Source: Cyanobium sp. ATX 6F1 (GTDB lineage Bacteria; Cyanobacteriota; Cyanobacteriia; PCC-6307; Cyanobiaceae). From it: a stretch of DNA of 50,492 nt. Below are positions 21,943-45,398 of the stretch, one piece after another. The notes beneath the pieces are model-generated. The model saw only the letters and a list, made by a program, of their open reading frames with translations. It had not been told where the DNA came from and made no database searches. Both the position numbers and the translations under genes were made by a program. Position 1 is the first letter of the stretch. Each line of letters starts with the position of its first letter. Where the stretch lies: positions 1-50,492 of the forward strand of contig NZ_JAGQCS010000014.1 in assembly GCF_024346315.1 (NCBI RefSeq), read 5' to 3'.

Positions 21943-22152
21943 GCAGCGCGGCTGAACGGCTCCAGATGGCTGGCGGCCAGGGGCCTCGACGTTCAACTGG
22001 TTCAGGCTTCAAGGATCAGGGAGATCGCGACTGGGCATGGGTCTCCTGGAGCTGATTCGCCGACCGGAGCTCAGGTCAGCCGCGCTGGCTTCTGCTGAGC
22101 GGGCGCGATCCCCTGTGAGGGGGCCACGGGAGCGTCAGCCACATCCGCAGAG

Positions 22153-25202: not shown

Positions 25203-25850
25203 GTGCAGGAGAACCATCTCGTCAAGGACTGCCTGCGCCGCCAGAACGGTGCGCTGCTGTTCATGGCACCGGAGTGGAGCGAGGCCCAGCGAGCGGTGCC
25301 CTGCCAGATCGTGGATGTCTTTGCGCTGCAGGTGGTGACGGGTTTCACCCGTGATCCGCAAGGGACGTTGCTGCTGGAGGCCCATCCCTCCGTGGCGGCG
25401 GGCCGCAGCTGGTCGCTGTCCAAGGCCGCTCAGCTGGCGCGGCTTGACGCCAGACCCGAGCGGTGGGTGGTGCTGCAGCGGAACAACAGAGCCTGGGGGC
25501 TGTTCTGGGCAGGTGGCGGACTGCATCGCTGCCGCCAGGAACTGCTGGCCAGCTCGGAATCGCCAGCACTCAGCTCAGCGATCGTTCCGGTCACTCCGGA
25601 GGCCGTGCTGCGGCTGGTCCTCAATCTCGATGTCGACGACACCGCCCCCGCCGCGACGGCTCTTCTGACCCATGCCCCGCTTGCCGTCGTGGGTGGTTCC
25701 GGAGTCCTGAAGGCCGTGCTGTGGACCTCCCTGGCCTGGCTGGCCGTGCTGGCTCTGACCGCGGCCGGCTTCCTGGGAGTACTGCGCGAGCAGGACCGCA
25801 AGCTGGAGCTGCTGCTGGAGCGGCTGCCCGCACCGGCTGCGCATCGCTGA
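25203..25850 (+). CDS. Hypothetical protein with C-terminal membrane anchor, 215 aa
   Basis: Not recognised. GTG start at 25203. Residues 1 to about 165 form a soluble mixed alpha/beta part (LLFMAPEWSEAQRAVPCQIV, ERWVVLQRNNRAWGLFWAGG) and one helix (LWTSLAWLAVLALTAAGFLG, about residues 177-196) precedes a short charged tail (LREQDRKLELLLERLP). It looks like a tail-anchored protein with its bulk in the cytoplasm. Confidence 0.65.
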   Translation: MQENHLVKDCLRRQNGALLFMAPEWSEAQRAVPCQIVDVFALQVVTGFTRDPQGTLLLEAHPSVAAGRSWSLSKAAQLARLDARPERWVVLQRNNRAWGLFWAGGGLHRCRQELLASSESPALSSAIVPVTPEAVLRLVLNLDVDDTAPAATALLTHAPLAVVGGSGVLKAVLWTSLAWLAVLALTAAGFLGVLREQDRKLELLLERLPAPAAHR

Positions 25851-26000
25851 TCTGACCTGCTGAGCTGAATGGCGGAGCTGCCCCGCACGCAGGACCCCAA
25901 AGGCAAGCCGGTGGACGCCGGCCAGTGCCATGGCTGGTTCGCCGAGCGCCTGCGAGCCCCAGGATTGATGGGGTGGGGCCCAGGAGTGAGGTTTGCCGTA

Positions 26001-26029
26001 CTGACACAACGGCCCAACGGATCTATACA
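26001..26029 (+). promoter_or_regulatory. Sigma70-type promoter of a candidate small RNA
   Basis: CTGACA (26001-26006), a 17-base spacer and TATACA (26024-26029) make a near-consensus vegetative promoter in an otherwise GC-rich gap. The predicted start is about 26036. No plausible reading frame follows before a strong terminator at 26084-26110, so the product should be a short RNA. Confidence 0.7.
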
Positions 26030-26035
26030 TGAATC

Positions 26036-26110
26036 AGAGGCCTCGACCAGGGCGGTTCCAACCAGTTCCCTGCAACCGGCCCGAGGGCGCCCGACACGGG
26101 GCGCCCTTTT
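26036..26110 (+). ncRNA. Candidate small RNA, about 75 nt
   Basis: Bounded by a sigma70-like promoter and an intrinsic terminator. The 5' part can fold CAGGG..GGTT-CC-AACC..CCCTG (about 26048-26072) into a hairpin, leaving an unpaired stretch GCAACCGGCCCG before the terminator stem. It does not match the small RNAs I can recall (tmRNA, SRP RNA, 6S, Yfr1). It could be a trans-acting regulator, or a prematurely terminated leader of the DUF427 gene that starts about 190 bases downstream. Confidence 0.55.
26084..26110 (+). terminator. Intrinsic terminator AGGGCGCCC-loop-GGGCGCCCT-TTT
   Basis: Nine-base-pair perfect stem (26084-26092 with 26099-26107), six-base loop and a T-run 26107-26110. It ends the candidate small RNA. 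Confidence 0.85.
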
Positions 26111-26297
26111 CATTGGCTCCAGGAACCCCACCGTCACCTGCCCATGGGCAGCGCCAGCGCCAGCAGCAGCGCCAGCAGCCACCAAGGGATCAGAGCCGTG
26201 ACACCATCGCGGACCAGGGCCCGATCGAGAGGCGGCGATCACCGATCGGAGGGAGGTGGAGCCATGGTGGAGCCATGGCCATCAAGGGAGCGTTCGA

Positions 26298-26777
26298 ATG
26301 GATTCACCAGCCGCGGAGAAAGCCTCCGACTATCCCCGGCCCCCGGCCCTGCGGGTCTGCCACTCCCATGTGCTGGTGCGGGCCCTCGGTGAGCTGCTCT
26401 GCGACACCCGGCAGTCGTTGCAGGTGCTTGAGACCTTCCATCCACCCACCTACTACCTACCACCGGAGTCGATCGCGCTGCAATGGCTTGAGCCGGTGCC
26501 CGGCCGCAGCTTCTGTGAGTGGAAGGGTGTGGCCCATTACTTCGATCTGGTGGTGGGGACGCGGCGGATCGAGCGGGCCCTCTGGCACTACCCCGAGCCG
26601 AGCGCGGCCTTCGCGGCCCTGGCGGGCTGGTTTGCCCTCTATCCAGCCCAGATGGACGGTTGCTGGGTGGATGGGGAACGGGTGCGCCCCCAACAAGGGG
26701 GCTTTTATGGCGGCTGGATCACCAGTGCCGTCAGCGGCCCGTTCAAGGGAGATCCCCTCCACCCGGAGCTGATCTGA
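26298..26777 (+). CDS. DUF427-domain protein
   Basis: About 159 aa from ATG 26298. It matches DUF427: RVCHSHVLVRALGELLCDTR, then TFHPPTYYLPPESIALQWLE with the conserved PP-x-YY-x-PPE motif, and CEWKGVAHYFDLVVG with the conserved Cys and Lys. The C-terminal part (GFYGGWITSAVSGPFKG) is also typical of cyanobacterial members. Biochemical function not established. Preceded by the candidate small RNA, whose terminator might attenuate it. Confidence 0.9.
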   Translation: MDSPAAEKASDYPRPPALRVCHSHVLVRALGELLCDTRQSLQVLETFHPPTYYLPPESIALQWLEPVPGRSFCEWKGVAHYFDLVVGTRRIERALWHYPEPSAAFAALAGWFALYPAQMDGCWVDGERVRPQQGGFYGGWITSAVSGPFKGDPLHPELI

Positions 26778-28307: not shown

Positions 28308-28724
28308 CTACGGCACCACCACGCGGGGCGACAGGTTGAGCTGGCGGATGCGCCGGGCAAAACCACGATCATCAAACGAGGCGATCGTCTCGCAGTGGCG
28401 GCAACTGGCGTGATGCAGGGCGTCGGCGAAATCAAGACCGGAGCGCAGGCCGGCCACCGCCTGCTCCTGGTCCGGGCGGTCTTCGATCTCAAGGCAGGGG
28501 TGGCTGAGCAGCTGATCCAACACCTGCAGCACCTGCTCCACCGGGAAGCCGTAGTAGCCCCGCAGCACCCACTCAAGTTCCAGGGTCACGGTCTTGGGCA
28601 GAAACAGATCCTGGCCGGATTCGATCAACTGGCGAGACGCCTGACGCTGGGCTTCGGTGGCGGCATCGCCCCTGGCTTCCTCCACGAAGTAGCGGGCCAG
28701 CACATTGGTGTCCAGCCCGATCAT
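28308..28724 (-). CDS. PIN-domain ribonuclease toxin (VapC-type)
   Basis: 138 aa. Acidic residues of the PIN active site appear in order: Asp in GLDTNVLARYF, Glu in VTLELEWVLRG, Asp in GLDFADALHH and Asp in ASFDDRGF. Presumably a Mg-dependent endoribonuclease held inactive by the AbrB-type partner. Its ATG overlaps the antitoxin stop (ATGA). It is a close paralogue of the PIN protein at 47153-47575 (shared LELEWVLRG-x-Y and GLDF-x-DALHH). Confidence 0.9.
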   Translation of the reverse strand: MIGLDTNVLARYFVEEARGDAATEAQRQASRQLIESGQDLFLPKTVTLELEWVLRGYYGFPVEQVLQVLDQLLSHPCLEIEDRPDQEQAVAGLRSGLDFADALHHASCRHCETIASFDDRGFARRIRQLNLSPRVVVP

Positions 28725-28963
28725 GGCCGCAGCAGGCTGGCGGCATCGAAGTCGACCGGAACGGGCGAGCGCTGGCTTTTGAGCAGTCCGAAGCCGCTGG
28801 CGGGCAGGGGCTGCTGCGGCCGCCAGGGCCGCAGTTCGATGTGGTCGCCCACCAGCTGGAAGCTGACGCAACTGCCCCGGGCCAGACCGAGTTGCTGGCG
28901 CAGGGCACTGGGGATGGTGACCTGCCCCTTGCTGGTCATCGAGCTGGTGCTGGAGGGATCCAC
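28721..28963 (-). CDS. AbrB/SpoVT-type antitoxin
   Basis: 80 aa from GTG 28963 (ATG at 28939 possible). The swapped-hairpin AbrB DNA-binding fold is TSKGQVTIPSALRQQLGLARG at about residues 10-30. The C-terminal tail with FGLLKSQRSPVPVDFDAASL should wrap the PIN toxin. It is the first gene of the two-gene module, with a palindromic promoter-operator 20 bases upstream. Confidence 0.9.
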   Translation of the reverse strand: MDPSSTSSMTSKGQVTIPSALRQQLGLARGSCVSFQLVGDHIELRPWRPQQPLPASGFGLLKSQRSPVPVDFDAASLLRP

Positions 28964-28982
28964 GACCGAACGCCAAGGAGTA

Positions 28983-29000: not shown

Positions 29001-29223
29001 GGGCCTGCTTACGGCCAACGGCCGCTGGCCTTGGCGATGGCGCCGCTGCAGCTCTCATAGCAAGCCGTTCCCCACAGACGACGACCCAGAGAACAAGCGG
29101 CTGTGGTTGCTTGCCCTGATTGGTGATCTTGTTGAGCGGCCATACACCACCAATGAAGCGGTGCTGGAAAGGGGCTGTGAGCTCGGCGAGGTTGTCGTGG
29201 CTGATCGGGAGCGTGCTCACGAC

Positions 29224-29490
29224 AAAGCCCGGTGACGAGGCCACTGGGCTCTGAAGCAGTTGGGTTGGTGGGGGCGGAGCTGCTGACGCTGGCACCTGAG
29301 GCGAGGCCGTTAACGGTGCAGTGGACGGCGACAACGTCACACGCCGGGGAAGTCAGTGATCCGTCGAGAGTGTTGGAGCAGGGACCGGATCGTCAGCGCG
29401 CTCCTGGCTGATGCTCAGGTGGGGTGTCTTCCATGCTTTGGAGCCTCCCGGTTGTCGATGCACTCACCATCGTCCGGCCCTCTGGCAGGA
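29224..29490 (-). repeat. Diverged intergenic element, copy A
   Basis: Shares four blocks in the same order with 45084-45480: a terminator-like hairpin (29224-29251), a GTTGGG..GGGGGCGGAG block (29259-29279), a 35-base block (29372-29406, GTTGGAGCAGGG then CGTCAGCGCGCTCCTG), and an upstream ATGGTGA region (near 29468). On the minus strand it begins 12 bases after the DUF4236 gene, contains a short peptide frame and ends in the hairpin followed by TTTGT. The rest of 28964-29501 shows no other gene. Confidence 0.7.
29393..29434 (-). CDS. Candidate 13-residue peptide MEDTPPEHQPGAR (copy A)
   Basis: ATG at 29434, stop TGA at 29393, preceded by GGGAGG nine bases upstream, a good Shine-Dalgarno. 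A longer in-frame start gives 25 residues (MVSASTTGRLQS before it). The peptide aligns without gaps to MDDTPPNQMSGAR of copy B; several base differences fall at third codon positions, consistent with selection on the peptide. Function unknown. Confidence 0.45.
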   Translation of the reverse strand: MEDTPPEHQPGAR

Positions 29491-45112: not shown

Positions 45113-45356
45113 GCCCATTTGGAGGCCCATCGGGGCCAGAGGCTTGAGAGTTGTGCAACGGATCGATGGATCGATCCTCAGGTTGGGCGTAGGGGGCGGA
45201 GTGGCTGGCGCAGGCCCCTGGGGCCATGACGTTCAAGCGGTGGTCGTCCGTTGGACCCGGGGCACCTGGAGCGGTGCGGTGGGTGGCCATTGAGCACAGG
45301 GCTCGGCCGGATGACCCAAGATCCCAATGAGACTGTTGGAGCAGGGGTCCGAAACG

Positions 45357-45398
45357 TCAGCGCGCTCCTGACATCTGGTTAGGCGGCGTGTCGTCCAT
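45357..45398 (-). CDS. Candidate 13-residue peptide MDDTPPNQMSGAR (copy B)
   Basis: ATG at 45398, TGA at 45357, with GGAG nine bases upstream as Shine-Dalgarno. It aligns gaplessly with the copy A peptide. Shared residues are M-D-T-P-P and G-A-R, and the stop lies in the conserved CGTCAGCGCGCTCCTG block. Function unknown. Confidence 0.45.
   Translation of the reverse strand: MDDTPPNQMSGAR

Follow-up and report, generated by a model that had tools for sequence, protein, structure and literature searches.

A probable multicopy small-RNA gene with its own promoter and terminator in Cyanobium sp. ATX 6F1 and related picocyanobacteria

Three described systems stand closest to the locus considered here. 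The Yfr2 family comprises cyanobacterial small RNAs that are multicopy and lie at unconserved loci, picocyanobacteria included, according to a published account (PMC6778093). The Cyano-2 motif (RF01702) is presented as a candidate structured RNA of marine cyanobacteria (PMC2864571), and LhrC of Listeria as a multicopy small RNA (PMC4132741). The stretch of DNA analysed here, hereafter the window, covers 50,492 nt of Cyanobium sp. ATX 6F1 (contig NZ_JAGQCS010000014.1, positions 1 to 50,492). Judging from sequence comparison, a region near its middle is probably a complete, independent and lineage-restricted multicopy small-RNA gene that acts in trans. A preliminary description of the window had predicted there an RNA of roughly 75 nt with its own promoter and terminator and had called the pair an orphan. 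Retention of promoter, body and terminator, together with co-changing paired positions, speaks for such an RNA. The label orphan has to be dropped, as the gene is one of three copies in its own genome and the family occurs in related picocyanobacteria.

The promoter and terminator originally proposed, CTGACA and TATACA separated by 17 nt and a 9-bp GC stem with a T run, can both be read in the window at the expected positions (Table 1). The terminator stem is perfect, pairing AGGGCGCCC (26084-26092) with GGGCGCCCT (26099-26107) around the loop GACACG, and the short T run behind it reaches 26110. The -10 hexamer is imperfect relative to the sigma70 consensus, position -7 not being T in the window copy and in most other listed copies. 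A standard promoter and terminator scan of the window listed neither element, the promoter because TATACA is without the T that the scan requires and the terminator probably because the T tail is short. Under a rule written after the site had been seen (-35 with at least 5/6 matches; -10 with at least 4/6, beginning TA; a perfect stem of 8 bp or more and a T-rich tail, located 20 to 120 nt past the start), both strands of the window, at 67% G+C, hold exactly one promoter-terminator pair, namely the site at 26001-26110. No pair arose in 40 first-order Markov simulations of the window, in which promoters alone occurred at 0.9 per simulation. To the left, similarity of the window to the same-genome copies L017 and L027 starts at 25944 and 25949, respectively; the letters matching the remnant at 25944 close an 83-aa DUF1651 gene in L017.

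Table 1. Positions of the candidate RNA gene, its predicted helices, its neighbours and related features. Positions are those of the window unless a locus or genome label is given.
Feature	Position	Strand	Remark
Whole RNA-gene unit	about 25985-26117	+	one of three copies in the genome
DUF1651 3'-end remnant and spacer behind it	25944-25984	+	common to same-genome copies L017 and L027
Conserved TTGCCGTACTGACA (-35 plus 8 conserved bases 5' of it)	25993-26006	+	from per-column information
TTGCCGTA	upstream of -35	+	stretch of the RNA-gene promoter
-35 CTGACA	26001-26006	+	read directly from the window letters
Promoter spacer, 17 nt, less conserved	26007-26023	+	0.82 bits in block -30 to -21
-10-like hexamer TATACA	26024-26029	+	TATCAA or TATTAA common in other copies
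Predicted small RNA, about 76 nt	26036-26111	+	start inferred from -10, end from T run
P1 GGCC/GGCC	26039-26042 with 26078-26081	+	98.9% of cells paired in 44 copies; double changes 0
Internal loop, 5+5 nt, unpaired	26043-26047 (UCGAC) and 26073-26077 (CAACC)	+	conserved
P2 CAGGG/CCCUG	26048-26052 with 26068-26072	+	99.1% of cells paired; A-U to C-G in 6/44
P3, apical hairpin	26055-26056 with 26061-26062	+	U-A versus C-G exchange at one pair
Intrinsic terminator stem	26084-26107	+	99.2% of cells paired; double changes seen at two pairs
Upstream neighbour, window copy	25203-25850		no Pfam match
Downstream neighbour, window copy	26256-26777	+	DUF427 gene, same direction as RNA
Copies with body kept and no recognisable -35	L105:7150-7287; L107:2997-3136; L107:3798-3927; L099:6718-6848
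Insertion-bearing rows of alignment A2	L002, L085, L064, L062, L067, L080, L084
Integron integrase	G000:C9:41774-42706 (in L182)		attC-like sites of 85-93 nt in same region
Integron integrase	G001:C6:53506-54441 (in L183)		attC-like sites of 85-93 nt in same region

Conservation was profiled over 52 rows containing the string CAGAGG and enough flank, with duplicates removed. Columns farther upstream than -50 carry 0.2-0.4 bits of information each; the value is 1.1-1.5 bits at TTGCCGTACTGACA, 0.82 in the spacer and 1.2-1.4 at the -10 and start, peaks at 1.75-1.84 in nt 1-20 of the RNA (a peak to which the alignment string itself contributes) and is below 0.3 past the terminator; columns past +50 are blurred by an insertion of 23-25 nt in some copies. 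Promoter and RNA are thus retained as two distinct blocks. TTGCCGTACTGACA is nearly private to the family: 17 of the 18 places with at most one mismatch sit at RNA copies, in seven genomes, and 12 of those 18 places are exact matches, the reversed-pattern control giving 10 places in all. More than three mismatches to it are found in 6 of 57 copies, four of which have no recognisable -35. The arrangements in L105 and L107 look alike. Some copies are taken to be relics because the terminator is missing (5 of 49 distinct bodies) or TTGCCGTACTGACA is strongly altered (6/57). The outcome named in advance as telling against a small-RNA gene, an unconserved region whose promoter decays freely, is not what the copies display: promoter, body and terminator are kept, and spacer and flanks are not.

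In the predicted fold the two GGCC arms are followed inward by the internal loop, the CAGGG/CCCUG helix and a small hairpin, with the terminator as a separate element. At -38.5 kcal/mol (z -1.83; 8 of 200 shuffles fold equally well or better), the fold alone is modestly better than shuffles, and the strong evidence is comparative. The structure test (alignment A2) used 44 of the 49 distinct bodies, the terminator-less L020, L089, L090, L103 and L105 being left out. Double changes fall at only 4 of 20 pairs, a number reached by 30 of 500 shuffles, with further pair types reached by 16 of 500; the remaining measures, which kinship among the sequences inflates, are 98.0% of cells in standard pairs against 95.9 in shuffles, 22 double-change cells against 8.2 and a covariation of 0.135 against 0.095, with 0 of 500 shuffles as high for either of the last two. 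Sliding the pairing partner along the alignment lowers paired cells to 26-62%. Compensatory changes speak for P2 and the terminator and, to a lesser degree, for the apical hairpin. Two pairs of the latter were tested across copies; one varies on one side only, and the other has 10 double changes yet is unpaired in 11/44. A hairpin is predicted where GGTT-CC-AACC had been proposed, although the pairing as first written would need a 2-nt loop and the fold gives GGU-UCCA-ACC. The most constant unpaired part of the RNA is the internal loop (consensus WCGAC/CAACC), whose strands have a mean unpaired probability of 0.88-0.98 and whose alignment columns G24, C26, C55 and A56 are identical in 44/44. 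The apical loop varies, being UCCA, GCGA or other. An insertion of 23-25 nt between body and terminator, TAG-bounded in most cases, is present in 7/44 copies from different genomes.

It had also been stated that no reading frame fits between promoter and terminator. Open frames do cross the region, so that the statement does not hold to the letter. The region is nevertheless taken to be non-coding, given the lengths of the RNA body, which differ among copies by 1, 2 or 6 nt (40, 45, 46, 47 and 48 nt), and the ATG at 26029, found in just 36/44 copies; a coding reading of that ATG was rejected because the start codon is not conserved.

Within the genome of ATX 6F1 the three copies are that of the window and those termed C2 and C1, which are 95% and 94% identical to it, respectively, over about 170 nt. 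Beyond these, a lenient search of the same genome gave short chance matches only, the best for the RNA part being 23 nt at 87%, and no extended match to another transcribed stretch, such as a cis-antisense RNA would have, was found. A 480-base query matched 16 of 60 genomes, covering the RNA in only five (the own genome, G001, G024, G031 and G036); the other 11 match just in short stretches outside the RNA. A covariance model built from 12 copies (R1) has matches in 97 of the 400 genomes searched from the family (E ≤ 0.1), the highest number per genome being eight. Many of the weaker rows may be terminators alone. As such rows are marginal or extend over just body and terminator, only the best 86 (E ≤ 5e-10) are counted here; these lie in 49 of the 400 genomes, with several in 24 genomes and a maximum of five. 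In G001:C4:88641-88673 the terminator sequence is identical at 33/33 positions, and the RNA model matches there only weakly. In a sample of the class, searched with stricter filters, matches at E ≤ 0.001 occur in 4/291 genomes; all four belong to the window's own family, and three of them match weakly. Of 39 stretches picked up by a pattern scan of named genomes, the profile confirmed 36, every one in a cyanobacterial record (Cyanobium, Synechococcus, WH 5701 included, or cyanobacterial bins). L082, L087 and L092, assigned to Corynebacterium, a Phycisphaerales bacterium and an actinobacterium, are chance pattern matches that the profile did not confirm. To date the family is seen only in picocyanobacteria of the Cyanobium/Synechococcus type. 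Removal of redundancy took 81 copies to 57, L001, L030, L031 and L040 having first been excluded as duplicates or degenerate. Identity is 0.785 within and 0.743 between genomes, a difference too weak to claim concerted evolution of same-genome copies.

Genes around these 57 copies were surveyed up to 1.5 kb per side, less in several. On the left are found a divergent metallothionein gene (PF02069; 20/57), DUF1651 (PF07864; 8/57, at most 45 nt away) and an AbrB-like gene (PF14250; 3/57). On the right are found a nucleotidyltransferase with HepT (PF01909, PF01934; 11/57), a convergent thiamine-binding-like gene (PF01910; 12/57) and a hypothetical gene without Pfam match (15/57). The PF01909 nucleotidyltransferase beside HepT is of the MntA type. 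Metallothionein is combined with MntA in 5 cases, with the thiamine-binding-like gene in 4 and with the hypothetical gene in 5, so no partner is constant. The order is DUF1651-RNA-MntA/HepT at C2 and RNA-MntA/HepT at C1, and the window copy retains on its left only the last DUF1651 codons, from 25944. It could be supposed that promoter and terminator came together by chance or that the region is a leader acting in cis on the gene downstream, and a DUF427 gene does follow the window copy in the same direction. Such a reading is very improbable: the unit is conserved across genera while downstream genes change, no constant same-strand downstream gene as expected of a leader or riboswitch is found across the 57 copies, the terminator closes the unit, and the simulations of the window gave 0 such pairs.

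In G031 a relative of the gene at 25203-25850 also lies upstream of an RNA copy, separated from it by AbrB-like and nuclease genes, and the location of the window copy may therefore be old. The blocks around the RNA gene are shuffled in G001, and the rearrangement of the neighbourhood between G000 and G001 left empty-site comparison with no insertion to define. The window also contains, at 29223-29403 and 45192-45367, a second repeat, about 180 nt long, with GTTGGAGCAGGG and CGTCAGCGCGCTC blocks at its end, which recurs in L176:4915-5125; in G031 it is directly behind an RNA-gene copy. Window positions 21976-22135 hold two short pieces matching the MntA-HepT region that flanks other RNA copies, possibly a relic, and the minus strand at 28308-28976 holds a gene pair of a MazE-like antitoxin and a PIN-domain protein.

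The metallothionein gene, divergent upstream in 20/57 non-redundant copies, raises the question of whether the RNA regulates this head-to-head neighbour, via its mRNA or a common operator. At least 24 of the best 49 metallothionein rows (E ≤ 2.9e-18) have a strong divergent RNA row within 200 nt, a lower bound because in G370 the metallothionein piece beside an RNA copy is cut by the contig end. The spacing is exactly 56 nt in 20 of the 24 divergent pairs, a constancy that the readings tested leave unexplained. Duplexes with the metallothionein leader are strong compared with those of shuffled RNAs (mean z -1.95; 17 of 18 loci). Against random genomic segments, however, the median fraction at least as strong is 0.30 over 17 loci and falls to 0.05 or less in just 2/17; the leader is unremarkable by this measure and was therefore rejected as base-pairing target. 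The common operator was likewise rejected, as the promoter motif travels with the RNA: among 28 metallothionein upstream regions examined of 30 loci, the 14 with the motif at two mismatches or fewer all adjoin an RNA copy, and the remaining 14 have neither motif nor adjacent copy. The genome of ATX 6F1 itself has three RNA copies and no metallothionein match at E ≤ 0.001, and of the 49 genomes with strong RNA rows 20 are without a strong metallothionein row, 15 having none at E ≤ 0.001. Regulation of the metallothionein gene is, on balance, improbable.

The exchange of neighbours could also mean that a mobile or recombinogenic repeat, such as an integron attC or a REP-like element, has been taken for a gene. 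Left modules (metallothionein, DUF1651, AbrB-like) and right modules (MntA/HepT, thiamine-binding-like, hypothetical) combine variously at nearly fixed distances. Neighbouring copies on the same contig within 100 kb are in direct orientation in 11/11 pairs (two of these pairs, from G146, could represent a single stretch that was assembled twice), whereas 3/4 of the more distant same-contig pairs are opposed. An integron integrase scores above the NCBIfam cut-off in 8/8 picocyanobacterial genomes tested, that of G031 with one internal stop. Because of the 11/11 direct pairs and the integrase in 8/8 genomes, an integron origin was tested. Sites of attC type have paired RYYYAAC and GTTRRRY boxes. 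Under this single rule for the boxes, two of the three integrase regions (L182 and L183, not L181) yielded attC-like sites, but none was found in the window, L184 or L185, and L186 has a single match of 151 nt, over 12 kb away from the RNA copies there. The RNA units were thus rejected as integron cassettes or attC sites, such sites being absent there despite the integrases. No match to the RNA unit was found in phages and plasmids (blastn), and no exact match to the RNA pattern in viral contigs. A selfish repeat would, moreover, leave unexplained the kept -35 and -10, the freer spacer and the terminator. That the units are repeats of this kind is accordingly improbable.

A trans-acting small-RNA gene remains the preferred reading. 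Transcription would start from the gene's own promoter (TTGCCGTACTGACA, less conserved spacer, CTATNNATGAAT) and yield an RNA of about 76 nt, in which P1 and P2 enclose the conserved 5+5 internal loop, with the variable small hairpin above and the terminator directly behind. Action in trans is suggested because neither neighbour is constant and no extended match exists elsewhere in the own genome. The contact site would be the conserved unpaired internal loop rather than the apical loop or tail; the loop may contact an mRNA once the weak 4-bp P1 opens, or it may contact a protein. This step from RNA to effect is the weakest part of the explanation.

A protein-binding RNA, of which the copies would supply decoy or scaffold and whose putative binding site would be the internal loop in closed helices, is a variant compatible with the preferred reading and a possible, if not the expected, form of it. 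In its favour, the unpaired bases that vary least are those of a symmetric internal loop flanked by near-invariant helices, while the apical loop varies, and several copies occur in 24/49 genomes; such motifs can, however, be kept by base-pairing RNAs too. More speculatively, and with rather low probability, the 5+5 loop of a hitherto undescribed, lineage-specific multicopy RNA family may bind a dedicated protein or RNA partner while the genes act as fixed reassortment junctions for accessory genes. If so, the accessory genes reassorted there would be metallothionein, the HepT/MntA toxin-antitoxin pair and DUF1651, and the changing neighbours offer natural tests of whether RNA genes serve as points of accessory-gene exchange. 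To our knowledge, few small RNAs of their own are catalogued for Cyanobium and freshwater or brackish Synechococcus. A clean family, with at most five strong copies per genome, its own promoter motif and a defined internal loop, gives a direct experimental handle.

At the Rfam gathering score there is no match to the RNA gene in the window or at the copies in 18 loci; the three matches that these loci did give correspond to one tRNA and to two parts of group II introns. At E ≤ 10, sub-threshold matches were dismissed as chance, the best, to a plasmid countertranscribed RNA, reaching 15.8 bits where the cut-off is 50. No earlier description of the RNA family was found in a literature search with limited coverage of subscription journals. 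The Cyano-2 motif resembles the family in being a candidate structured RNA in cyanobacteria; it differs in that RF01702 has no match in the window or five other loci at E ≤ 10. LhrC is likewise a multicopy small RNA, but its host is unrelated, its regulation has been studied, and the likeness is one of description. With Yfr2 the present family shares its being multicopy at unconserved loci. Yfr2 is reported to occur in all analysed cyanobacteria (PMC6778093), whereas the RNA here is found only in the window's own family and is not present throughout cyanobacteria (4/291 class genomes). Multicopy small-RNA genes of picocyanobacteria are already known as a kind through Yfr2, and the family represented at this locus would be a new member of that kind.
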